Assembly: GCF_000763575.1 (NCBI RefSeq)
Contig: NZ_CP009170.1
Location: 645,501 to 709,500, forward strand
Reading direction: 5' to 3'
DNA from: Thermoanaerobacter kivui
GTDB taxonomy: Bacteria > Bacillota > Thermoanaerobacteria > Thermoanaerobacterales > Thermoanaerobacteraceae
Length of the DNA: 64,000 nucleotides
Shown here: one piece after another, positions 27,560-59,124 of the stretch
Numbering within the stretch: the first letter of the stretch is position 1
How the letters are laid out: the number at the start of each line of letters is the position of its first letter
Notes under the pieces: model-generated
Seen by the model: only the letters and a program-made list of their open reading frames with translations
Databases searched by the model: none
Told to the model about the DNA's origin: nothing
Position numbers and translations under genes: made by a program

Positions 27560-27635
27560 AAGGATAGAGTGAAAAATTATTATTCAAAACTTATCATTTA
27601 TGAGATATAATGATACTAAGAAGGAGCAGAATGCC

Positions 27636-28718
27636 ATGGATAATAAAAATGTAAAGGAAGCTATTCACAATCAGCATGACAAAGGGTATAAGTTTTTGTT
27701 ATCCAGTAAGCGAGTATTTATAGAGTTATTACGAAGTTTTGTAAAGCAGGAATGGGTAAATGATGTAGACGAGGCAAATGTAGTTAAAGTAGATAAGTCA
27801 TTTGTATTACAAGACTTTGCGGACAAAGAAGCAGACTTGGTTTACAGAGTAAAATTAAAAGATAAAGAAGTGATATTTTACATACTGATGGAATTACAAT
27901 CAACAGTTGACTATCAAATGCCCTACAGGTTACTTTTATACATGGTAGAGATATGGAGAAGCATATTAAAAGACGTACCAAAAAAAGAATCAAGAAGGAA
28001 AGATTTTGAATTACCAGTTATAGTGCCGATAGTACTGTACAATGGGAGTCGTAAATGGACAGCAAAGACAAGCTATAAAGAAATCCTAAATTCTTATGAA
28101 ACTTTTGGAGAATATGCAGTAGATTTTAAATATATACTGATAGATGTAAATAGGTATACGAAAGAGGAGTTATTGAGGCTGGAGAATTTAATAGCGTCTG
28201 TATTTTTATTAGAACAGAAGGTAGAATTCGAAGAAATGATGACAAGACTTAGAGAATTGTCAAACACGTTAAAGAAATTGGATGAAGATGAGATTTTGTT
28301 ATTTAAAGCATGGTTTAAAAAGATATTAATGGCAAGGATGCCAGAAGAAGAGAGAAAAAATATAGAAAGAATAATAGATGAAAACAAGGAGGTGGAAGAG
28401 ATGATATCAAATCTTGAAAAGACCATATTGCAAGAGATGAAAGAGCGTGAGAAAAGGGGTATTAAAAAAGGGATAAAAAAAGGGATAAAAAAAGGAATAG
28501 AAAAAGGAATAGAAAAAGGAATAGAAAAAGGAATAGAAAAAGGCATGGAGAAGGGAATAGGAGTAACTGTTATTAAGTTATTAGAGAAGAAATTTGGGAA
28601 TGTTCCTGAAGAATATGTAAAGAAAATAGATGGTGCAAACAGGGAAACGTTGATGGATATTGTTGACAATATATTTGATATAGATAAGATAGAGGATTTA
28701 GATAAGTTTTTGAAATAA
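27636..28718 (+). CDS. Rpn-family recombination-promoting nuclease / PD-(D/E)XK transposase-like protein
   Basis: The protein of about 360 residues has an N-terminal PD-(D/E)XK nuclease domain of the Rpn/Transposase_31 type. This domain includes HDKGYKFLLSS, KEADLVYRVKLKDKEVIFYILMELQS (the D...E-x-Q acidic core) and MPYRLLLYMVEIW. Near the C terminus about nine KGI(K/E) tetrapeptides are encoded by 12-bp repeats. The ending is [12 protein letters not shown]. Rpn proteins promote RecA-independent recombination. ATG 27636 follows AAGGAG and is preferred over ATG 27600. Its last ~60 bp and terminator recur at 35274-35362. Confidence 0.88.
   Translation: MDNKNVKEAIHNQHDKGYKFLLSSKRVFIELLRSFVKQEWVNDVDEANVVKVDKSFVLQDFADKEADLVYRVKLKDKEVIFYILMELQSTVDYQMPYRLLLYMVEIWRSILKDVPKKESRRKDFELPVIVPIVLYNGSRKWTAKTSYKEILNSYETFGEYAVDFKYILIDVNRYTKEELLRLENLIASVFLLEQKVEFEEMMTRLRELSNTLKKLDEDEILLFKAWFKKILMARMPEEERKNIERIIDENKEVEEMISNLEKTILQEMKEREKRGIKKGIKKGIKKGIEKGIEKGIEKGIEKGMEKGIGVTVIKLLEKKFGNVPEEYVKKIDGANRETLMDIVDNIFDIDKIEDLDKFLK
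28458..28560 (+). repeat. 12-bp tandem repeat coding KGI(K/E)
   Basis: Roughly eight to nine copies of a 12-bp unit of the type ggaatagaaaaa lie inside the Rpn-type gene. The unit is a multiple of three, so copy-number change would lengthen or shorten the linker without breaking the frame. Confidence 0.9.
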
Positions 28719-28830: not shown

Positions 28831-31221
28831 ATGAAGATTGAGGATTTAAAAGGAAAATTGTTTGAGGACAATTATATTAACATTGCTATTGAGGAGTATT
28901 TAAAATTCAAGGAAACTAATGTTTATGATGAAGCATACAAAAGACAGATTTTAAGTGAACTGAATAATTATTTAAAAGATAAAAGGATTACTTCTGAAAA
29001 TATTATTGAAATAGTCGAATATTTTCAGAAGAAAAATCCGCCAAGAGGTAGTTTTGTTCACTGGAGTAATTTGGATGACCTATATAAATATGCTAAAGAA
29101 AGACCTGTTGAAGTAGCTGAGTTGTTAAATTATTTATATGAGGAATCGGTAGAGGTCGGCGATAGAATAGAAAGATTTTTAAATACGGCTAAAAGTTATA
29201 ATTTGTCAATTAAATTGGGTACTTCGCTTTTTGGATATTTGTTAGCAGGATTTAATATGAGAAAATATCCCCTATTTAAAGATAGCATATTTAAGGATTT
29301 TCTGGATTCTTTTGGTATTAAAGAAATTTTTGGTGATATACCTACTAAATATTCTGCCTACTACAATCTTTGCCTTATTTTACTTGATTATTTTAAAGAA
29401 AAGGACTACATAAAAAATCCTGATATGATGGATGTCCAAGATTTTATTTTTTGTATGTCTCCGAAAGACGGTTATAAAGATTTGTATGTTAAGGTTAGTG
29501 TAAGGTATCTTTATGAACATGCTAAAATACTTGATTCTTTTAACAGGGATGATAAAGTTTTTATAGATTATATAAATAAACTGGACAGAGATTATATAGG
29601 GGAAATGTATGATAGGTATAGAGATACAGAAAAAGTAAATGAGATAAGGTTTGAAGTTTGCAAAAAAGTAATAAACGATGGGAGTATAAGTATTGAAGAT
29701 TTGGAAGAAATAAAGAGTAAAGTTTCAAGCAAACATAAAAAAGACATATTAAAGTCATGGAATAATTTTAAAATATTATTTCCATTTTATTATGAAAAAT
29801 ACAAAAAAAAGATAAATATAGAGCTTAGGAAAATCTATGATAGTGTTAAATCTATTGAAACTTTTAGAGGATATGACTTCAAAGAAAACGAATATATTTG
29901 TGACTTTTATGGTCCACAAAATTTTGGTGGTACAAGATCTTGGTTTGCCATATATTCCAAGGATAAAGATACTCACAAGGATTCGGCTCAATTGTTTTTT
30001 AGCCTTGAAAACAAAGAGATTTCATATGGTCTGTATATTGGTTCTAATCTTAGAAAGATTGATGAAGTGATAAAAGATGATATTGATAGTGTTAATGATG
30101 TAGAGGAGTTTACGTACAACAAAATGGAAAAGAAATTTGTTGAAGTTTTTGACAGGTTTAAGGAAATAAATGAATCTACTCAAGTAAAAGCGGATAATGG
30201 TGACAATGTTGCTAAAGACGATGGTGAAAATATCTCAGAAGATGTGATAAGCTTGGGGGTTGATTTTAATAAAGAAATCAAGATCAGAAAGTTATTTTTT
30301 GAGGATGCCGATATCTTGGCAAAGCGAATATCTACTGCCTTGAAATCAGGTAAACACATAATTCTTGTAGGACCTCCTGGCACAGGTAAGTCTAAGTTGG
30401 CTAAGGAAATATGTGAAAGCTATGAAGTAGATTATGAAATGGTGACAGCTATGTCTGATTGGTCTACCTATGACACTATTGGGGGTTATAGGCCTGAGGT
30501 AGATGGAACTTTGTATTTTGATGAAGGTATATTTTTGCGCCTTTTTAAGGATAAGAAAAATAATGCCCCTACAAATAAGTGGCTTATTATAGATGAAATC
30601 AATAGGGCTGATATTGATAAGGCTTTTGGTTCTCTTTTTTCTGCTCTGACAGGAGATAAAGTAACGTTAAGCTTTAAATCAAAATCAGGAAATAATATAG
30701 TTTTAAGGCCACAGCAAGATAACGAAAAAATAGAGCCAAATGATTATGAATATATAATCCCTAAGGATTTTCGAATTATTGGAACGATAAACACTTATGA
30801 CAAAACTTCTTTATATGAAATGAGCTATGCGTTTATGAGGAGGTTTGCTTTTATTCCTGTAGGAGTGCCCCAAAATATTGATAAAGACCTTATAGAAAGA
30901 TATTTGAATATATGGGGCATAGAGGATAGGGTTATTAACAACGTGGATTTAAAAGAAGGTTTGGCTGAAGTTTGGAGTATAATAAATAAATACCGAAAAA
31001 TTGGTCCTGCTATTATTAAAGACATTGCCAAGTATGTGAGCGAAGAGGGGGATTACACTTCAGCTATAATACTTTACGTGTTGCCTCAATTTGAGGGGCT
31101 TATGGTCAATGAGATAAAAAAATTTGCCGAGGAACTGTATGGATGTAGTATTAAAGATTTTATAAATATAGAGCAAAGGAAAAGACTAGACAGTTTCATC
31201 GAGGACTTTTTCGGTGTATAA
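28831..31221 (+). CDS. mcrB: McrB-like AAA+ GTPase/ATPase of a type IV restriction system
   Basis: The 796-residue protein has a long N-terminal region (about 1-470) that I do not recognise and that probably recognises the target DNA. An AAA+ motor of McrB type follows. Walker A is GPPGTGKS (514-521), Walker B is LIIDEINRAD with Asp588-Glu589, and the GTINTYDK segment matches the McrB NTxD-type sensor. It overlaps or abuts the McrC-like nuclease gene. McrBC systems cut modified DNA. AGGGGGAC precedes the ATG. Confidence 0.88.
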   Translation: MKIEDLKGKLFEDNYINIAIEEYLKFKETNVYDEAYKRQILSELNNYLKDKRITSENIIEIVEYFQKKNPPRGSFVHWSNLDDLYKYAKERPVEVAELLNYLYEESVEVGDRIERFLNTAKSYNLSIKLGTSLFGYLLAGFNMRKYPLFKDSIFKDFLDSFGIKEIFGDIPTKYSAYYNLCLILLDYFKEKDYIKNPDMMDVQDFIFCMSPKDGYKDLYVKVSVRYLYEHAKILDSFNRDDKVFIDYINKLDRDYIGEMYDRYRDTEKVNEIRFEVCKKVINDGSISIEDLEEIKSKVSSKHKKDILKSWNNFKILFPFYYEKYKKKINIELRKIYDSVKSIETFRGYDFKENEYICDFYGPQNFGGTRSWFAIYSKDKDTHKDSAQLFFSLENKEISYGLYIGSNLRKIDEVIKDDIDSVNDVEEFTYNKMEKKFVEVFDRFKEINESTQVKADNGDNVAKDDGENISEDVISLGVDFNKEIKIRKLFFEDADILAKRISTALKSGKHIILVGPPGTGKSKLAKEICESYEVDYEMVTAMSDWSTYDTIGGYRPEVDGTLYFDEGIFLRLFKDKKNNAPTNKWLIIDEINRADIDKAFGSLFSALTGDKVTLSFKSKSGNNIVLRPQQDNEKIEPNDYEYIIPKDFRIIGTINTYDKTSLYEMSYAFMRRFAFIPVGVPQNIDKDLIERYLNIWGIEDRVINNVDLKEGLAEVWSIINKYRKIGPAIIKDIAKYVSEEGDYTSAIILYVLPQFEGLMVNEIKKFAEELYGCSIKDFINIEQRKRLDSFIEDFFGV

Positions 31222-31234
31222 GGGGATGTTAGGG

Positions 31235-32548
31235 GTGAAAACCAGCAAGGAAGAATTACTGGATGCCATAAGTGCGGATTTGATTGCATATTTGAAATCC
31301 GGCGTATTTTCTCCTCGGCCTTTTCTCAATAAAATAAATTTAAACATAGACAGAATTGAAGATTTAATCAAGATACATTTTTTGCTGGATGAGAAAGTGA
31401 AGGATTATATTTTAAATCTACCTCAAATGATTAGAAGACTGACAGTTTCTACCGATTTATATCAAGAGACTGGCCGCGACCGGATTAAAGGTGCCATAGA
31501 TTGGTCTAAAACTATGTTTCAAAGACTAAATACCTACTATAAGGATAAAACTCTTTTTAGCTACAGAGAAAGGGACAAGCTTTATAACACCAAAGAAAAC
31601 ATAGTTTTAAAAAAATTTATAGAAGTACTGTACAATATTATTTTTGTAGAAGTTAAAATGGAACGATTTGTAAACTATGAGTGGTATAGAGAAGGTTATG
31701 AAATAAATCGGATTATAAAGGAAATATACGAAAAGAATATTTATCTTAGCAGAATAAATATTGAAGGGATAAAAGTAAGCCATAGAATGATTGAAGATGT
31801 TGCTAAAAATAGAAATAAACTTTACAAAGAGGCAGCGGAATTGTTGAGGAAATACAAGAGGTTAGTAAATTTTGTAGACGAAGGAGAGGTCATAGACCTA
31901 TTCCGAAATACTTTTGTAGAAATTGTAAATGAAAATGTGCTCTTTGAGCTTTATTGGGTCATTAGGCTTATAAAGGACAATACCTCCAATGCCAAAATGC
32001 ATATTGTGGACGGTGGCAATAATAAAGTAGCTTCTTGGGAACAGGGTAATTTTTTATATAACGTTTACCACAATAGTACCGGCTCCGGAAGACTAATATT
32101 CCGAATAGACTTTGAAGAAGTAAAAAATATTGAAAATGAGTATTTTAGAAGAAGTATTGAGGTTGCCAAGAATACCTCTAGAATAGCAGCAAAACTTTTT
32201 GAGGACAACAGCGCTTTTTTATCTGACAGTTTATGGAGCGGTCGGCCTGATATTCTTGTGGAAGTTGTCGACAGAAATACTGGTAAGATAAAAAAGATTA
32301 TCATTGGGGAAGTAAAATATACTACAGACAGGGATTACATGATACAGGGATTAAAAGAGCTTTTGGAGTATGTTTATTATATAAAGGAAAAGTCAATAAA
32401 AGGCATGTACGTTTTTGACAATCCACAAAGTGAAATAGAGGTAGGAGGTATTTTGTTTGTTGATGATATTAAGTTTTTATTCTTAGAAGGTGAAATTGTA
32501 AATGTTTATAAAACAAGTGATAAAAACATATTATTGCAGTCTATATGA
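31235..32548 (+). CDS. mcrC: McrC-like PD-(D/E)XK nuclease subunit
   Basis: This protein of about 437 residues has a C-terminal nuclease core with SGRPDILVE (Asp339) and IIIGEVKYT (Glu359, Lys361), the D...E-x-K pattern of McrC/LlaJI-type subunits. The N-terminal part resembles DUF2357-type McrC relatives (FLLDEKVKDYIL, YRERDKLYNTKENIVLKKF). In-frame GTG 31214 and ATG 31226 exist. GTG 31235 is best spaced from AGGGG at 31221-31225 and would place the start just after the McrB stop. Together with mcrB it should form a complete modification-dependent restriction system. Confidence 0.86.
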   Translation: MKTSKEELLDAISADLIAYLKSGVFSPRPFLNKINLNIDRIEDLIKIHFLLDEKVKDYILNLPQMIRRLTVSTDLYQETGRDRIKGAIDWSKTMFQRLNTYYKDKTLFSYRERDKLYNTKENIVLKKFIEVLYNIIFVEVKMERFVNYEWYREGYEINRIIKEIYEKNIYLSRINIEGIKVSHRMIEDVAKNRNKLYKEAAELLRKYKRLVNFVDEGEVIDLFRNTFVEIVNENVLFELYWVIRLIKDNTSNAKMHIVDGGNNKVASWEQGNFLYNVYHNSTGSGRLIFRIDFEEVKNIENEYFRRSIEVAKNTSRIAAKLFEDNSAFLSDSLWSGRPDILVEVVDRNTGKIKKIIIGEVKYTTDRDYMIQGLKELLEYVYYIKEKSIKGMYVFDNPQSEIEVGGILFVDDIKFLFLEGEIVNVYKTSDKNILLQSI

Positions 32549-33383: not shown

Positions 33384-33600
33384 TAAATATGCACCTCTTA
33401 AAGATAAAATAACATTAAATAATACTTAAATCCTCCTTTCTAAAAATTTTTGTATTTAAAAAAATAATATATTAACTATCTTTTCTTGTCAATAAAATTT
33501 AATTTTGATGAAGAAATCTTTTTGCTAAACTAAAGTTATTTTTTGTCGATAATATTTATGATAATTGCATACTTTGAATAATAAAATGGGGAGTGAGGAA

Positions 33601-35298
33601 ATGAAGGGGACAGTTGTAGGAACGTGGATTAAAAGCTTAAAAAATTTATATGGTGAAGATTTAGTTGATAATGTACTAGAAAGTCTTGGTTGGGATATTA
33701 ATCATGTTATTACCCCTTTAGAAGATAAAAATCAAAGATGTATTTGACGCTGTGAGTAAAAAGGTTGGTGTTCCTGTTAATGAGATTTGGAGAAAAGTGG
33801 GGAGGCAAAATATTAATAATTTTAGTGAATGGTTTCCTTCATATTTTACAGGGAGAAAACTTGTGAACTTTTTGTCAATGATGGATGAAGTGCATTTGCA
33901 ACTTACAAAAATGACAAAAGGTGCTAATCCACCGAGGCTTTTAGTAAGACCTGTTTCTGTTGATACTATAGAGATGGAGTACATATCAAAAAGAAAACTT
34001 TATGATTATTTTTTAGGTCTTATTGAAGGCAGCTCTAAATTTTTTAAAGAAGATATAACTGTAAAAGAGATTTCGCGAGAAGAAAAAGACGGCAATGCAC
34101 ACTTAAAAGTACATATTAAGTTTAGTAAGCCTGTATTTGTTTATAAGAAAAATCTTTTAAGTAAGATTTTTGGTTTAGGGATTATGAAAAGTGTATCTTT
34201 AAAAACAAGCTTTGTAAGCTTTTTAGCAAGTTTTTTGGTTTTAGGGGTTGTATCTTCTTGGAATATAGTAGATGCAACAACTGGTGCAATAATAATTGGT
34301 TTTATAACGTATGCCACATCATATATTATTAATTCGCCAATAAAAAGCTTTCAGGACTTTATAAAAATATTAAAGAGTAGAAATTTTGAAGATGAGTTTA
34401 AAATAAAAAGTGGAGATATTTATGAGACAATATCTAAAGAGTTAAATGAGCTAAAGGACAATATAAAAAAGGATATGCTCTTCTTAAAAGGCGGAACTGA
34501 CGATATGTATAATTTCACACAGAAGTTTAATCAGATTGCCAAAAACATGGAAAAAGTTTCAGATGATATATCGGGAGTTGTCCATGATGTTGCAACATCT
34601 ACGGTAAGCCAGGCAGAAGAGATAGAAAAAGCTGTTGGTATATTAGATGAAAATATTAAGAAAATTAATGAAATAGCAGAGATAGAGAAAAAAGTAACGA
34701 AAAATTAGAGGATTCTATAGGTAATAGTAAAAAGACAAACAATGATATAACCTATGTATCTGAAGATTTGTCACAAGTTGAAAGTGATTTTTCAAGTATT
34801 TATGAAATGGGTAAAATCTTATCTGACAATGCTAAAGATATTATGAAGATAGTCACAACAGTTGAGCAGATTTCAGATCAGACAAATTTGCTTGCATTAA
34901 ATGCAGCCATTGAAGCTGCAAGAGCTGGTGAGGCAGGCAGAGGCTTTGCAGTTGTTGCCGAAGAAGTCAGGAATTTAGCAGAAGATTCTAAAAATGCAGT
35001 AAAGACAATCACAGATAGTTTGTTAAGTTTTACTGGGCAAGTAGAGAATTTGGCTGAGAAAATTAGTGCTCAATTTGAAAAGCTAAAAAAGAGCATTGCA
35101 ATATTAGAAGGTGTTGTAAATAACAATAAAGAAGCTACAGAGAAAGTAGCCAATATATCAAAAATAATTATGGATTCAGCCGATAAGCTTTATAAGGAGG
35201 CTGAGGAACTTTCAGAGGTATTTAGTCATCTTGAAAATTTGGCAGCTATATCAGAAGAAAATTCTGCTTCTTCATTGTTGATAATATATTTGAGATAG
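33601..35298 (+). pseudogene. H-NOX (heme NO/O2-binding) chemoreceptor, frameshifted and 3'-truncated
   Basis: With two one-base corrections the gene reads as a fusion of an H-NOX sensor, a membrane hairpin and a methyl-accepting signalling domain, like Tar4H of Caldanaerobacter. The heme ligand His lies in MDEVHLQL and the YxSxR propionate motif in EYISKR. The distal-pocket Trp9, Asn (RQNINNF) and Tyr (LYDYFLGL) of the O2-binding type are all present. One A too many at 33727-33731 and one too few at 34688-34693 break the frame. After ISEENSASS the gene switches into an Rpn-type tail. The signalling tip [18 protein letters not shown] is intact. ATG 33601 follows GGGGAGTG. Confidence 0.9.
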
Positions 35299-35333
35299 AT
35301 AAAATAGAGGATTTAGATAAGTTCTTGAAATAA
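35274..35333 (+). pseudogene. 3' tail of an Rpn-type gene fused to the chemoreceptor gene
   Basis: In the frame ending at 35333 this stretch reads [19 protein letters not shown]. It matches the last 19 codons of the Rpn-type gene at 27636-28718 ([19 protein letters not shown]), and the DNA match continues through the terminator. The upstream part of that gene copy is missing. Confidence 0.85.
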
Positions 35334-35334
35334 A

Positions 35335-35367
35335 GGTACTATGAAAAGGAGTGTCTTTATTTTTTTG
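35335..35367 (+). terminator. Terminator copied with the Rpn-type tail
   Basis: GGTACT and AGTGTC form a weak stem with two wobble pairs around ATGAAAAGG, followed by TTTATTTTTTT. It is about 90% identical to 28720-28750. Confidence 0.7.
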
Positions 35368-35397
35368 GTAACAGAAGAGCAGATAAAATCCTGCTCC

Positions 35398-36411
35398 CTA
35401 TCTAAAGTTTACAAATTCTTCTATGAAATAATCAATCGCATTTAATCGGCTCTTTATATACAAACCAATTTTAGTCCTTTCACACAAATCGACTAATAAA
35501 TGAAATAAATATTCATCTCTTACAAATATTTTCTTTGGTTTACCCATATTTAAAATATATGGAATTACCATATCAAAAACATATTGTACTTCATTATCTT
35601 CTGGAGAAAGAATATGTTGATCTATTATCATCCCTGATTTAGAATCAGCAAGAATACAAATTCTCCCTGCAATTGGTCTATCATATTCTTTATCTCTAAT
35701 TATGGTATTCAAGTACGCTATATCAACTTCTATTTCGGCAGAAGTAGTTGGTTGCTTTGCCATTCTTGATAAAAGAAGCTCATCTTTTAATATAGGGATT
35801 AAATATTTTCTTTGGGGTAACAAAAGGGGAGCTGCTAAAGTAACCCATTGATTTTTTTGCTCATCGTATTTATGAACTAGAGTTTCTCCCTCTTCGAAGT
35901 TAACTACAATATTTTCTTCAATGTAATTTTTTAGTGCTTGTAATAAATGTCTCATTATTGCTGTCTGTTTTAATACTTCTTCTTTATTCAAAATATAAGG
36001 AGCATATCCTTTCTTGAAAGATCTAAAATAGATCCAGTTATTCCTACCTCTAAACTTCAATCCCAGGTCTTTTACAATTTGCAATTCTTCTTTAAACAAC
36101 TCTTCTCTATCCCCAAAATAGCATATAATTACATTATCTTCTTGAAATCGCTGAATTTGCTGTGGTGGCATATCAGTAGTCTCAATAATTTTGTAAAAAT
36201 TATCCAAAGCATCAAACCCAAAATAAAAACCTATACCGTAAAATTCTCCTCCTCTTCCCATTACACTACAATATACTGGTTCTTCATTTTCTGGCAAAAT
36301 TAATGTTATTATATCTACATCCCAAAAATATTTCCAAGGATTTAATTCCTTTATTTTAACAGCTACCTCATACAATTCTTTCCACTCTTCTAATGTCGCT
36401 TTTTCTTTCAT
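35398..36411 (-). CDS. Hypothetical protein with DUF7309/DUF6930-like regions
   Basis: The 337-residue soluble protein begins WKELYEVAVKIKELNPWKYFWD and contains YCSVMGRGGEFYGIGFYFG. This matches what I know of a two-part family annotated DUF7309 plus DUF6930. The C-terminal third includes RICILADSKSGMIIDQHILSP and PKKIFVRDEYLFHLL. No catalytic motif is evident. It lies 40 bp downstream of htpX on the same strand with its own ribosome site. Function is unknown. Confidence 0.7.
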   Translation of the reverse strand: MKEKATLEEWKELYEVAVKIKELNPWKYFWDVDIITLILPENEEPVYCSVMGRGGEFYGIGFYFGFDALDNFYKIIETTDMPPQQIQRFQEDNVIICYFGDREELFKEELQIVKDLGLKFRGRNNWIYFRSFKKGYAPYILNKEEVLKQTAIMRHLLQALKNYIEENIVVNFEEGETLVHKYDEQKNQWVTLAAPLLLPQRKYLIPILKDELLLSRMAKQPTTSAEIEVDIAYLNTIIRDKEYDRPIAGRICILADSKSGMIIDQHILSPEDNEVQYVFDMVIPYILNMGKPKKIFVRDEYLFHLLVDLCERTKIGLYIKSRLNAIDYFIEEFVNFR

Positions 36412-36451
36412 TACTATTTACACCCTTCCTTATAAAATTTTCTTATGTCTT

Positions 36452-37351
36452 TTACATTGTAAGGCTCTTCAACCTCTTAATTCTCTCTTCAATTGGTGGA
36501 TGAGTTGCAAATAACTTTTCCGCTCTTCCGAAAGGATTTGATATAAACAAATGAGCTGTTGCGTCAGAGGTAACTCTCATGGGTCTAGTATAACTACCTA
36601 TTTTTTCAAGAGCTGATGCAAGACCATAGGGATCTCTTACAATATAGGCACCAGTTGCATCTGCCAAATATTCTCTTTGTCTTGAAATTGCAGACCTTAT
36701 AATTAATACAATAAGAGGAGCAATAATAGAAAAAATAAGCCCAATAATGAGGAGAATTATAGCTCCATTGTCATTTTTATCTCTTCTTCTGCTTTCTCCC
36801 ATTCCCCACCACATACTTCTTAGCATTACATCCCTGAGTAAAATTATAAGTCCTGCAACAACTGCAACAACCGTCATCAAAAGTATATCTCTATTTCTGA
36901 TGTGAGATATTTCATGAGCTATTACTCCTTGGAGCTCTTCTCTATTCATCATTTGAAGTAGACCGGTTGTGACACAAACAGAAGCATGCTTTGGGTCTTT
37001 GCCCGTAGCAAAAGCATTAGGTTGGGATTCTTCCATTATATAAACATTGGGCTTTGGTATACCTGCTGCGAGAGCAACTTCTTCCACAATATTATGAAGA
37101 ACATAATATTCTTCCGGATGTGCCGGGATGGCTCCCACCGACGCAAGAGCTATTTTATCCGACTGTTCATACGCTATCCAATTATACAGCACAATAAAAA
37201 TTGCTAAAAGAACTATTCCTGTAAGTCCCCAGTTGAAATACCATACAAAAAAATAACCTATAGCAAAAAGTATAAGAGAAAATGTGACTATAAATAGATA
37301 AGTTTTCCTTACATTTTCTGCTTGAAGTTCATATAGAGTTTTTCTAGACAT
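36452..37351 (-). CDS. htpX: HtpX-family membrane zinc metalloprotease
   Basis: The protein of about 299 residues has two N-terminal membrane helices, then the M48 zinc motif HEISH (His146, Glu147, His150) followed by RNRD. Further helices and the third-ligand region ([16 protein letters not shown]) come after. HtpX degrades damaged membrane proteins in the cytoplasmic membrane. The minus-strand ATG at 37351 follows GAGGGTG with good spacing; a TTG at 37375 is less likely. It is paired with lemA directly upstream, a common arrangement. Confidence 0.93.
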
Positions 37352-37371
37352 TACACTCACACCCTCGTTAA

Positions 37372-37917
37372 TCAAAACTGAACATTAATAGGTCCTCTTT
37401 CACCTTCATCAACAGGATAATATTCCTTGGGTGTTAATCTCATCATATTTGCAACAATAGAAGCAGGGATTCTCTGTTGTGCTGCATTGTACTGCATGAC
37501 TATATCATTATAAAACTGTCTTGCAAAAGCAATTTTATTTTCTGTATTAGTTAATTCTTCTTGGAGTTTTAAAAAATTCTCATTTGCCTTTAATTCTGGA
37601 TAATTTTCTGCAACAGCAAAAATTGTCTTAAGAGCTTGTGTAATCTGATTATTAGTATCTCCTACTTCTTTTACTGATTGAGCTCCCATTGCCTTAGCCC
37701 TTAATTCTCCTAAATTTTCAAAAATCTCTTTTTCATGAGCAGCATATCCTTTTACTGTATTCACAAGGTTAGGTATAAGGTCATATCTTCTCTTTAACTG
37801 TACATCTATTTGCGCCCAAGCATTTTCTACTCTGTTTTTCAAATTAATAAAACTATTGTAAGTCATAATAAACCACAAAACTATAACTGCTACGATACCT
37901 AAAATTATCCATATCAT
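37372..37917 (-). CDS. lemA: LemA-family protein
   Basis: The 181-residue protein has one N-terminal membrane helix (about 3-22) followed by the LemA coiled helical domain: [60 protein letters not shown]. It is exported or anchored at the membrane with the domain outside. LemA and HtpX genes are frequently adjacent, as here with a 20-bp gap. The promoter lies at 38045-38073 on the minus strand. Confidence 0.93.
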
Positions 37918-38044
37918 TTGATTTCCTCCTTCATATTCATTATAAATTTCTGACCTACCATATTTGCTCCTTTAATTTCTTACACTAAGTTTGACATTTT
38001 AATAGCTTTTATATTCTGTGTTTTCTTAAATCTTTCTTAGTTTC

Positions 38045-38073
38045 ATTATATTATATATCTATTATACATGCAA
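38045..38073 (-). promoter_or_regulatory. Promoter for lemA-htpX (minus strand)
   Basis: On the minus strand, TTGCAT (38073-38068) and TATAAT (38050-38045) are 17 bp apart. The surrounding ~110 bp closely match the Uma2 promoter block at 27375-27490. Confidence 0.65.
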
Positions 38074-38145
38074 CAGAATATAACTTTGGTATCCGGCGTT
38101 CCAAAATGGGGTTAGATTACTTTTGTCAGAGTATGTCTATTTGTA

Positions 38146-38174
38146 TTGGAATTTGCTTTATAAAATGGTAAAAT
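38146..38174 (+). promoter_or_regulatory. Promoter for yfcE
   Basis: TTGGAA and TAAAAT are separated by 17 bp, with TGG directly before the -10. It lies about 36 bases upstream of the yfcE start. Confidence 0.6.
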
Positions 38175-38209
38175 TAAAATTAAGATGTAGAAAGGTAGGG
38201 TGATATTAT

Positions 38210-38764
38210 ATGAAAATTGGTGTTATAAGTGACACTCATGGAGATTATAGGTCATGGGAAAAGGCGTGGGATTTTTTAAAGGATTCGGATATTATTTTAC
38301 ATGCAGGGGATGTATTGTATCATGGACCGCGTAATCCAATTCCCGAAGGATATGACCCGAAAAAACTTGCTGATGCTGTAAATGCCTCTCCCGTTCCAAT
38401 TTTGATTGCAGAAGGGAATTGTGATGCTTATGTTGACCAAATGATGCTTGATGTACCTATACAAACACCGTATGTCTTTGCTTTCATTGAGGGGAAAAGA
38501 TTTATGATTCAACATGGCCATAATATTTCTGATGAAGATATACATAAGTTGGTTAAGAAGTATAAATTAGATTATTTTATAATTGGGCACACGCATATTC
38601 CTTTAATAAAAAAGATTGAAAATTGTGTGGTGATTAATCCTGGTTCTACATCTCTCAGCAAACGGGAAGATAAGATTAATTCGGTAGGATTTATTGAAGT
38701 TGAAAGTGGAAGTGTTCATATAATTGATTTGGAAAGCGGAAAAGATATTTTGTTTTTGGAATGA
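38210..38764 (+). CDS. yfcE: YfcE-family metallophosphodiesterase
   Basis: The 184-residue calcineurin-type phosphoesterase carries GVISDTHGD (metal site I), LHAGDVLYHG, EGNCDAY, QHGHNIS and IGHTHIPL. This is the full set of metal-binding motifs. YfcE of E. coli hydrolyses phosphodiesters in vitro. Length matches the family. A GGTAGGGTGAT stretch lies before the ATG. It is followed directly by a broken aldo/keto reductase fragment. Confidence 0.92.
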   Translation: MKIGVISDTHGDYRSWEKAWDFLKDSDIILHAGDVLYHGPRNPIPEGYDPKKLADAVNASPVPILIAEGNCDAYVDQMMLDVPIQTPYVFAFIEGKRFMIQHGHNISDEDIHKLVKKYKLDYFIIGHTHIPLIKKIENCVVINPGSTSLSKREDKINSVGFIEVESGSVHIIDLESGKDILFLE

Positions 38765-39232
38765 TATGTAAGTTTAGAACTGCTTAGTAAGTATTTAAAC
38801 CAAAAGCTTATTATAAACCAATTGCAGTTTAGTATTATGCATAAAGGTATAATAGATTCTGGTTTTAATGTGAATATGAAAATAGATCAGTCTATAGATA
38901 GAGATGGCAATGTTTTGGAGTATTGCAGGTTAAAGAATATTACGATACAAGCATGGTCACCGTTCCAATATGGATTTTTTGAAGGCACTTTTTTAGATAA
39001 CGAAAAATTTAAAGAACTTAATGACAAAATTGACGAAATTGCTGCTAAAAAGGGTGTGCCAAGTATTGCTATACCTATTGCATGGATTTTAAGACATCCA
39101 GCAAAGATACAACCTATTGTTGGTACGACAAATCCTGCTCGATTGAAAGATATATGCAAAGCATCAGAGATTGAACTTACAAGAGAGGAATGGTATGAGT
39201 TATATAGAGCTGCAGGAAATAAATTACCATAA
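38765..39232 (+). pseudogene. Aldo/keto reductase, 5'-truncated remnant
   Basis: An open frame without a proper start reads ELLSKYLNQKLIINQLQFSIMH, then ITIQAWSPFQYGFFEG, IPIAWILRHPAKIQPIVGTT and ARLKDICKASEIELTREEWYELYRAAG. This is the C-terminal half of a YdhF-type NADPH-dependent aldo/keto reductase. The N-terminal half with the catalytic Tyr and Lys is absent and the fragment begins immediately after the yfcE stop, so the 5' part was deleted. Confidence 0.85.
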
Positions 39233-39502: not shown

Positions 39503-40954
39503 GTGACTCCCTATGGGGTAGAAGTTATACAGGGGTATACAGTTCTAAAAGATGGGATTAATCGATGGCGAATTCCCAAGTTTGGAAAAATGAGAGTGGA
39601 TGCTGTAATATATGTGAATGATACGTTAAAAGAGCTTTTATATGAAGACCAGTCTTTAAGGCAGCTTGTCAATGCTGCTAGTCTTCCCGGAGTTGTGGAA
39701 CCTGTTATAGGTATGCCGGATATCCATGAGGGGTTTGGGCTTCCTATAGGAGGAGTTATGGCAATAGAGGAGAAAGGGGTCATTTCAACTGGAGCAGTAG
39801 GGTATGATATTAATTGTGGCGTAAGGCTTTTGAAAACTAATCTTGAAGCAGCGTATTTTAATAAAGAGCTTTTATATAAGCTTATAGAACGGATCGAGTA
39901 TTATGTTCCTACAGGCATAGGGAAAAAGGGAAAACACAAGGGTATTACACGGGTAATTTTTGATGATGTAGTGCACAGAGGGGTAGAAGCGGTTATTAAA
40001 GCTGGTTTTGGAAAAAAATCAGATCTGGAGTATATTGAAGAGGGAGGAAAGCTTGAAGGAGCTGATCTTTCTGCGGTATCAAAGGAAGCACAGGAAAGAG
40101 GCGAAGAACAACTTGGCACTTTAGGAGGAGGCAATCACTTCATAGAGATTCAGCGAGTTGATTCTATTTTGGATGAAAAATTGGCAAGACAATTTGGGCT
40201 TTTTAAAGGGCAAATTGTCGTTATGATTCACACGGGAAGCCGCGGATTTGGGCATCAGATTGCTACAGATTACACCAAAATCCTTTGGGAAGCGGCGAAA
40301 AAATACGGAATTGAGGTTCCTGAAAAGGGACTTGCTGCGGCTCCTATTGATTCGAAAGAGGGCAAAGCGTATTATAAAGCGATGGCAGCTGCAGTGAACT
40401 TTGCTTTTTCAAACAGGCAGATAATCATGTTTGATGTGATAAGGGCTTTTGAGGATGTTTTGAAAAAGTCTGAGGAGTCTATGGGGTTCCAACTTGTATA
40501 TGACGTTGCTCACAATATTGCTAAATGGGAAGTACATGGCGGTAAGAGGCTTCTTGTCCACAGAAAAGGAGCCACAAGGGCTTTACCAGCAGGACATTCT
40601 CAGAATCCTTCTTTTTACAAAGAATCAGGACATCCTGCTCTTATTCCCGGTAGTATGGGTACAGGTTCTTATGTGGTGGTTGGCACAGAAAAAGCGGCAG
40701 AGACCTTTTATTCTGTAAATCACGGAGCAGGACGAAAGCTTTCACGAAATAAGGCTAAAAAAATCAGTAAAGAGGAATTTGAAAAGGCTATGGGGGATGT
40801 AGTATACAATGTTCGGTCTTATAAAGATATCGCTGATGAGTCGCCACTTGCTTACAAAGACGTAGAAGAGGTTGTGTCTGTTCTTGAGAAAAGAGAAATT
40901 ACTATACCTGTTGCTCGATTTGTGCCTCTTGCAGTTGTAAAAGGCGCAGATTAA
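39503..40954 (+). CDS. rtcB: RtcB-type RNA-splicing ligase
   Basis: The 483-residue protein carries all RtcB signatures. GYDINCGVRLL has the metal-binding Cys105. GGGNHFIE, HTGSRGFGHQ and YDVAHNIAKWE follow. HRKGATRALPAGH comes next, and VNHGAGR contains the guanylylated His407. RtcB joins 2',3'-cyclic phosphate or 3'-phosphate RNA ends to 5'-OH ends using GTP and Mn2+. The GTG start is the only candidate before the conserved INRWRIP region, and its ribosome site is poorly spaced, so the N terminus is uncertain. Confidence 0.93.
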   Translation: MTPYGVEVIQGYTVLKDGINRWRIPKFGKMRVDAVIYVNDTLKELLYEDQSLRQLVNAASLPGVVEPVIGMPDIHEGFGLPIGGVMAIEEKGVISTGAVGYDINCGVRLLKTNLEAAYFNKELLYKLIERIEYYVPTGIGKKGKHKGITRVIFDDVVHRGVEAVIKAGFGKKSDLEYIEEGGKLEGADLSAVSKEAQERGEEQLGTLGGGNHFIEIQRVDSILDEKLARQFGLFKGQIVVMIHTGSRGFGHQIATDYTKILWEAAKKYGIEVPEKGLAAAPIDSKEGKAYYKAMAAAVNFAFSNRQIIMFDVIRAFEDVLKKSEESMGFQLVYDVAHNIAKWEVHGGKRLLVHRKGATRALPAGHSQNPSFYKESGHPALIPGSMGTGSYVVVGTEKAAETFYSVNHGAGRKLSRNKAKKISKEEFEKAMGDVVYNVRSYKDIADESPLAYKDVEEVVSVLEKREITIPVARFVPLAVVKGAD

Positions 40955-41058
40955 TGGGTAAGTTTGCAAATACATCGCTTTATAAGGTATTGTTGTGGAC
41001 TATAGGAATTATAGTGACGGTTTTAAATGTGATGCTTCTTATGAGCTTTGTTGGATGA
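40954..41058 (+). CDS. 34-residue membrane peptide, possibly a fragment of an Nramp-type transporter
   Basis: An ATG overlapping the rtcB stop opens a 34-codon frame with a single membrane helix (YKVLLWTIGIIVTVLNVMLLM). The MGKFANTSLYKVL opening resembles the last helix of Nramp-type divalent-metal transporters. It may be a leftover of such a gene, or a translated small protein coupled to rtcB. No ribosome site of its own is evident apart from AAAGGCG. Confidence 0.4.
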   Translation: MGKFANTSLYKVLLWTIGIIVTVLNVMLLMSFVG

Positions 41059-57745: not shown

Positions 57746-59124
57746 TTATTTTTGCATATTTAGTACGCTGTGGTATTTGCCGTAAGCGAAGTAAATTATC
57801 AAACCTACCAACATCCATATTCCAAACCTTGCCCATGTAACCCAAGGTAGACTTGCCATAAGGTATAAGCTGAAAGCCATTGTAAGAGGTGCTACTACCC
57901 AAACAAAAGGAACTCTGAATTTCCTTTCAACATTAGGCATTTTAACTCTTAAGACTAATATTCCTATTGATACAATTACAAATACAGACAGAGTACCTAT
58001 ATTGCAAAGCTCAATAATTATATCAAGTGGCAAAAATCCAGCAATAATAGCTGCTACTACACTTGTAATTATAGTGTTGATATGAGGTGTTCTATATTTG
58101 GGATGAACATGAGAGAAAACTTCTGGCAAAAGTCCATCTCTTGCCATAACCATAAATATTCTTATTTGACCGTAAAGAGTTACGAGGAGTGTGGATATCA
58201 TACCCACAGCGGCACCAGTGGCTACCAAAGCAGAACCCCAGTTGATTCCTATGCTCATAAGGGCACCGGGTAGAGCATTATCCGGGATAATCTGTTTATA
58301 AGGTACCATGCCTACTAAAACAACAGCTACTGAAATATAAAGAGCCAGTATCAACACCATCGCCATCATCAGTCCCAAAGGGACGTCCCGCTTTGGATTT
58401 TTAGTTTCTTCCGCTGCGGTAGATACTGCATCAAAACCTATATACGCAAAGAATATGATGGCTGCAGCAGACATTATGCCTTTCCAACCGTAAGGTGCAA
58501 AGGGTGTTAAATTTGACAATTTTACATGGCTAAAGCCTAAGAAAAGGAACAAAAGTATTACTGCTATTTTTAAAAGCACTATTATGTTGTTTGTCGTTGC
58601 ACTTTCTCTAACACCTATATACAAAATCCAAGCGACAAATGCTGTTACTAAAATTGCAGGTAAATCCATTACTCCTCCCCAAATAGGGGGTTTTGCTATA
58701 ACTTCTGGCAAAGTTATGCCAAAAGATTTTAAAAGTCCCACGAAAGTACCTGACCATCCGGAGGCTACTGCGCTGGCAGATACTAAATATTCCAAGAGTA
58801 AGTCCCATCCTATTATCCAAGCTATAAGTTCACCAAATGCAACATAAGCATACGTATAAGTACTTCCGGCAACAGGAAACATTGTAACCAATTCGGCAAA
58901 TATAAATGCAGCTAATGCCGCAGTTATACCGCCTATCACATAGGAAATTATGACGGCTGGACCAGCTCTTAATGCACCTTCCCCGGTTGCTACAAAGATT
59001 CCGGTGCCTACGACAGAACCTATTGCCAAAGCTGCGAGGTCTATAGCGGTGAGCTTTTTGTTTAAACCTGTTCGTTTCGCTGCTTCCAGCAGCTGGTCTG
59101 CTGATTTTTTCTAAATAAATCCAT
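57746..59124 (-). pseudogene. APC-family amino-acid permease (YfnA/CAT type) with an N-terminal frameshift
   Basis: From 59029 downward the protein is complete for the membrane part. It has GSVVGTGIFVATGEGALRAGPA in helix 1, about twelve helices, and FIGFDAVSTAAEETKNP typical of cationic amino-acid transporters. The natural start is the ATG at 59124 after GGGGA, reading MDLFRK. A run of six A (59110-59105, minus sense) instead of seven then shifts the frame. In the next frame SADQLLEAAKRTGLNKKLTAID leads smoothly into the transporter. The gene is broken by one base, or a sequencing error is present, or translation re-starts at TTG 59029. Confidence 0.88.

Follow-up and report, generated by a model that had tools for sequence, protein, structure and literature searches.

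Does Thermoanaerobacter kivui DSM 2030 still encode a working H-NOX chemoreceptor at positions 33601-35298 of the window (the whole stretch of 64,000 nucleotides that was analysed, positions 645,501 to 709,500 of contig NZ_CP009170.1), or are these the remains of a receptor gene that has been lost? We are highly confident that 33601-35273 is a recently inactivated pseudogene, the former product of which was a membrane-anchored methyl-accepting chemoreceptor (MCP) coupled to an H-NOX domain of the Caldanaerobacter O2-binding class. Disruption of this receptor is a known kind of event, gene decay, in a known family, and two observations mark it as a pseudogene: intact orthologues exist elsewhere, and the lesions are backed by independent data in the form of a published difference table.

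The identity of the gene emerges when its three frames are read together (Table 1), frame 1 carrying it up to codon 42, frame 2 on to about codon 368 and frame 1 again thereafter. Both N-terminal pieces belong to the Pfam family HNOB (PF07700) by profile match, with E-values of 2.3e-30 and 4.3e-6; against a cut-off of 25.5 bits, piece 2 scores 106.1 and piece 1 27.2. MCPsignal matches the third piece. The proximal His102 and the YxSxR residues have a role in H-NOX, and Trp9 and Asn74 act in the distal pocket in stabilising O2. We compared eleven pocket and ligand positions (5, 9, 74, 78, 102, 115, 131, 133, 135, 140 and 144) column by column with 16 other aligned rows; His102, Y131/S133/R135, W9/N74/Y140, F78, P115 and L144 are all kept in T. 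kivui, and these ten positions agree in 16/16 rows, whereas position 5 is Val in T. kivui and in all rows other than the two of Caldanaerobacter type, where it is Ile. The proximal His and YxSxR expected of an H-NOX domain are thus present, and the distal Tyr140 together with Trp9 and Asn74 would place the domain, at residue level, in the O2-binding subclass; in H-NOX, Tyr140 stabilises bound O2, as stated in the available part of PMC9814294. Against the solved H-NOX domain of the Caldanaerobacter subterraneus (tengcongensis) H-NOX-MCP (PDB 1u4h/1u55/1xbn), T. kivui aligns over residues 1-43 and 56-190 with Trp9, Asn74, Tyr140, His102 and YxSxR identical, and the domain order (H-NOX, linker/membrane part, MCP) is the same. 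Both this alignment and that of the 16 rows bear out the sequence-only reading of a conserved heme His, YxSxR motif and Trp/Asn/Tyr pocket. Unlike the Caldanaerobacter gene, that of T. kivui is disabled by three lesions, is missing its last 40 codons, carries Val at position 5 and has no AAA_33 gene directly upstream.

Table 1. Positions of the receptor segments, lesions and neighbouring features (window coordinates unless a locus is named).
Feature	Coordinates	Strand	Basis
Sigma-28-like promoter candidate TAAA-N15-GTCGATAA, weak, 48 nt upstream of ATG	33526..33552	+	pattern match
Shine-Dalgarno-like GGGGAGTGAG ahead of ATG	33588..33597	+	kept in aligned orthologues
H-NOX-MCP segment 1, codons 1-42, holds Trp9	33601..33726	+	62% aa identity to L003; HNOB 1-40
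Lesion 1: deletion, 11 bases fewer (net) than in the intact orthologues; shifts the frame, first stop 33745-33747	33726..33728	+	alignment
H-NOX-MCP segment 2, codons 47-368: Asn74, His102, Y131/S133/R135, Tyr140, membrane/linker part	33728..34693	+	65% aa identity to L003; 1u4h/1xbn alignment
Lesion 2: one base lost (net), changing the frame; stop 34706-34708	34676..34693	+	alignment
H-NOX-MCP segment 3, MCP signalling domain to codon 562/602	34693..35273	+	79% aa identity to L003; MCPsignal E 2.9e-32
Lesion 3: junction, last ~40 receptor codons missing	35273..35274	+	alignment
3' end of Rpn/Transposase_31 gene: about the last 18 codons, stop, terminator-like tail	35274..35375	+	nucleotide identity
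Intact Rpn/Transposase_31 (PF04754) gene, left border of variable island	27600..28718	+	same side of slot in G001, G002, G003, G007
Conserved right border: DUF7309 (-), HtpX (-), LemA (-), YfcE-like phosphoesterase (+)	35376..38764		same order in G001-G004
AAA_33 5' stub, 145 bases	L069 8280-8424; L070 11423-11567		beside DUF7309

Three lesions interrupt the gene. At the first, 11 bases are absent after codon 42 relative to both orthologues (L003 and L004), and since the loop concerned has a constant length in the 16/16 other aligned proteins, we regard this lesion as a deletion and not as a miscounted A run. The second could be slippage in a run of six A. The sequence-only reading had ascribed both frameshifts to A runs, and while it placed them correctly (33727-33731 and 34688-34693), its account fits the second and not the first. 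It had also noted that the protein ends early, which is so, but the cause is a junction and not a plain truncation: receptor homology stops at 35273, and what follows is the tail of an Rpn/Transposase_31 gene, with an identity of 99.0% over 102 bp to the copy in genome G001 (L068), of 97.1% over 103 bp to the G002 copy (L067) and of 91.3% over 92 bp to the one that T. kivui itself has intact. The stop at 35296-35298, which lies in the receptor frame, comes from this remnant being translated out of frame. The 26 bases that follow from 35375 recur unchanged in G001, G002, G003 and G004 and run on into DUF7309. No single open frame therefore joins the sensor to an MCP hairpin with a complete C-terminal helix, and ordinary translation of the T. 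kivui sequence does not allow a full-length receptor.

Lesions of this sort may be sequencing errors, and 454 reads, from which the reference was built in part, miscount homopolymers; lesion 2 does sit at a run of six A. On that account, put forward in the sequence-only reading, both frameshifts would be errors in A runs and the 3' truncation alone would be real. An 11-base gap is not explained in this way, and MiSeq reads were already part of the original assembly along with the 454 reads (according to the available portion of PMC4320612). Moreover, a resequencing of the same strain from a DSMZ colony, G-1, with ONT (308x) and Illumina (427x) reads, tabulated the small differences from the reference, and the table has no entry within 679,101-680,798, that is, within the H-NOX-MCP gene, the nearest tabulated differences lying at 542,777 and 704,424 (PMC11895483). 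At three landmarks of this table (C at 110,469, the 22-base unit at 542,777 and T at 704,424) the genome analysed here agrees with it. Because this second assembly lists no change in the gene and the first already included MiSeq data, the lesions are very probably real in T. kivui DSM 2030, a judgement based on the G-1 difference table and not on the G-1 sequence; the error account is set aside as highly improbable. The two G-1 differences that do fall in the window are at 58924 and 59105 (genome 704,424 and 704,605; Table 1 of PMC11895483).

Real lesions might still be tolerated if the split gene worked, either as separately expressed fragments or by recoding across the breaks to give a shortened sensor. 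The first open reading frame keeps a good ribosome-binding site, most of the H-NOX core lies in the second (318 aa, from the GTG at 33752) and the MCP hairpin in the third, and with the second and third being long, fragments may be expressed; the frame change at lesion 2 also runs in the direction that would be expected of backward slippage on an A run. Nevertheless, the second frame lacks the first 55 H-NOX residues, Trp9 among them, and the earliest possible start of the third, at 34768, is 59 nt past the stop of the second. Recoding at lesion 1 would require the opposite direction of shift and would still leave several residues absent, and the C-terminal helix is missing in any case. A programmed frameshift would be expected to be kept in relatives, but one open frame was found in 15/17 other HNOB-bearing genomes, and the two exceptions, a stop in G028 and a frameshift in G036, are broken at other places. 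Hence we give very little credence to a split gene that still works, and favour an inactivated one.

Intact orthologues, a search for which the sequence-only reading had proposed, were found: in Caldanaerobacter subterraneus DSM 13054 (L003/G007) and in a Thermoanaerobacter-labelled MAG (L004/G006) the gene is one open frame of 605 codons from a GTG, or of 602 from a TTG that aligns with the T. kivui ATG. In a tree of 17 rows the T. kivui gene groups with these two Caldanaerobacter-type genes with a support of 100/100, the proteins being about 70% identical over 556 columns. A full-length second copy in T. kivui would have spoken against the sequence-only reading; the whole genome (one contig, 2,397,824 bases) has no second copy of the HNOB family. 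The family was detected in 3/10 genomes of the genus set, T. kivui included, with 7/10 devoid of H-NOX (among the nine other genus genomes it is found in G006 and G007 only), in 3/20 genomes of the family-level search and in 18/37 of the class-level search. Class relatives have full-length homologues of 602-605 aa with the same pocket and about 38-42% identity to L003; the H-NOX-MCP gene is present in 13/13 searched genomes of family f4 and also in G035, and these genes are intact save those of G028 and the draft G036. The former (L085, single contig) has an in-frame TGA at codon 47, where its close relative L086 has TTA; as read from the assembly, an O2-type H-NOX-MCP gene has thus probably been disabled a second time, independently. 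In the latter (L089 1241-3048), whose draft has about 110 contigs, the frame shifts at a T run and divides the gene at codon 94, which may be a sequencing error. Among the open-access papers searched, none pairs T. kivui with H-NOX.

When was the gene lost? Relative to L003, the T. kivui pieces differ at 129/71/307 sites of codon positions 1/2/3 (pN 0.176, pS 0.794), and as synonymous sites are saturated with respect to the nearest orthologues, the neutral period is bounded only loosely. Since this saturation defeated dating by dS, we relied on relative-rate counts and on the absence of nonsense codons. T. kivui and L003 show equal change (chi2 ≤0.73 in 14/14 outgroup rows), and with three outgroups the excess amino acid distance of T. 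kivui is -0.9%, +0.5% and 0.0%, the upper 95% limits being ≤3.4%; there is no detectable relaxation of constraint. Moreover, the 557 codons of the T. kivui gene contain no in-frame nonsense codon, which bounds the neutral substitutions since the loss to at most about 3.5-6.6% per site (95%, varying with the transition bias). By comparison, T. kivui and G002 differ by a dS of 0.02 in DUF7309, 0.06 in YfcE and HtpX and 0.17 in RtcB. With neither nonsense codons nor excess divergence, nearly all of the divergence of the gene arose under selection and the loss is late; on the scale of the family, it is recent. The earlier suggestion of recent sensor loss is upheld by these data, together with the intact pocket and the intact orthologues.

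The surroundings of the gene point to how its 3' end may have been replaced. In T. kivui the order is Rpn, McrBC-like pair, TM2, RDD, broken H-NOX-MCP, Rpn tail and DUF7309, and in Caldanaerobacter it is Rpn, AAA_33, H-NOX-MCP, YfcE and AKR. The same slot holds transposase-like genes (named by eye from the open reading frames) in G001 and G002 and McrBC-like genes in G003 and G004, the halves of the slot in G004 being on separate contigs; G003 and G004, which have no H-NOX, carry beside DUF7309 a 145-base 5' stub of AAA_33 that is 95% identical to Caldanaerobacter. In T. kivui, the 102 bases just ahead of DUF7309 correspond to the 3' end of the Rpn/Transposase_31 genes (PF04754) of Thermoanaerobacter; only a remnant stands at this place, the intact T. 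kivui copy ending 6.5 kb upstream. We read the slot as a turnover-prone island in which the H-NOX module was gained or lost more than once.

Possibly, the partial receptor was imported by natural transformation when already cut and never worked in T. kivui; it would have been inserted by homologous joining at the left Rpn gene and by illegitimate joining inside the tail of a resident Rpn gene. This would be compatible with a pseudogene and would alter only the history of the gene. T. kivui is naturally competent (as given in the accessible part of PMC9834392), the left Rpn gene is closest to the G003 copy (94%), next to which McrBC-like genes are found too, the tail remnant is closest to G001 (99%), and among the nine other genus genomes H-NOX occurs solely in G006 and G007. 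However, no donor is known, as the copies found share no more than about 70% identity with the T. kivui gene; an import junction leaves the two further small intragenic lesions unexplained, and two deletions beside an older Rpn copy would produce the same map. We hold import of a cut gene to be less likely than not, but it competes seriously with two deletions at the site itself.

In the ancestor with a functional receptor, a diatomic ligand (O2 or another), the identity of which we infer, would have bound the ferrous heme on His102, and judging from the family, binding would have shifted the H-NOX fold and altered the activity of the coupled MCP hairpin and CheA. In T. kivui three separate lesions prevent this: the loop behind codon 42 has lost 11 bases, one base is missing near codon 368, and a rearrangement exchanged the last 40 codons for the tail of an Rpn/Transposase_31 gene within the turnover-prone island that extends from the Rpn gene to the DUF7309-HtpX-LemA-YfcE block. 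The order of these events, like the reason for the loss, is something we infer. The genome retains an open CheA gene of 660 aa, two matches to flagellin and four further matches to MCPsignal, counts that fall inside the range seen across the rest of the genus set. As judged from its genes, it is one receptor that is lost and not chemotaxis; with CheA, the flagellins and four more receptors still present, we rejected the idea that the chemotaxis system was lost as a whole.

Relatives with an intact receptor most likely detect O2 at a ferrous heme that Tyr140 stabilises, and pass the signal on through CheA. The available part of PMC9814294 describes the O2-sensor role of the Caldanaerobacter H-NOX protein as presumed, not demonstrated, and a function of H-NOX-MCP as an oxygen-avoidance sensor is likewise a presumption. 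Broken H-NOX-MCP copies occur in 3/18 HNOB-bearing genomes of the class search (T. kivui, G028 and G036) with unrelated lesions, and G003 and G004 keep only the 5' stub of AAA_33, the gene that precedes H-NOX in Caldanaerobacter. We tentatively suggest, while considering it somewhat doubtful, that O2-type H-NOX chemoreceptors are repeatedly shed in thermophilic anaerobes while the chemotaxis machinery is retained. If so, O2 avoidance through an H-NOX receptor would be dispensable and niche-dependent. T. kivui, a genetically tractable relative that recently lost the gene and kept CheA, flagellins and other receptors, would offer a natural loss-of-function test background; annotators and modellers should credit no working H-NOX receptor to T. 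kivui DSM 2030.

The sigma-28-like promoter upstream of the gene is suggestive only. The pattern matches once in the window against 0.16 expected and is present in 14/100 shuffles; genome-wide it matches 13 times against 25 for a reversed control pattern and hence is not enriched. At the other 12 sites, the longest open reading frame starting ≤250 nt away lacks the MCP motif searched for (12/12), and the -35 part of the intact orthologues is TGAA, unlike the TAAA of T. kivui. For these reasons the site was dropped as proof of a flagellar regulon.

Further observations concern the neighbouring genes. The McrB/McrC-like pair beside the Rpn gene (28831-32548) is about 67% identical to the pair at the same place in G003 and G004. 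After RtcB, an Nramp-like transporter is matched over no more than its final 39 codons (40939-41055), and the same remnant occurs in G001 and G004. Abutting YfcE, an aldo/keto reductase gene (38768-39232) lacks its first 150 codons, and the same truncation in G004 suggests a shared deletion.
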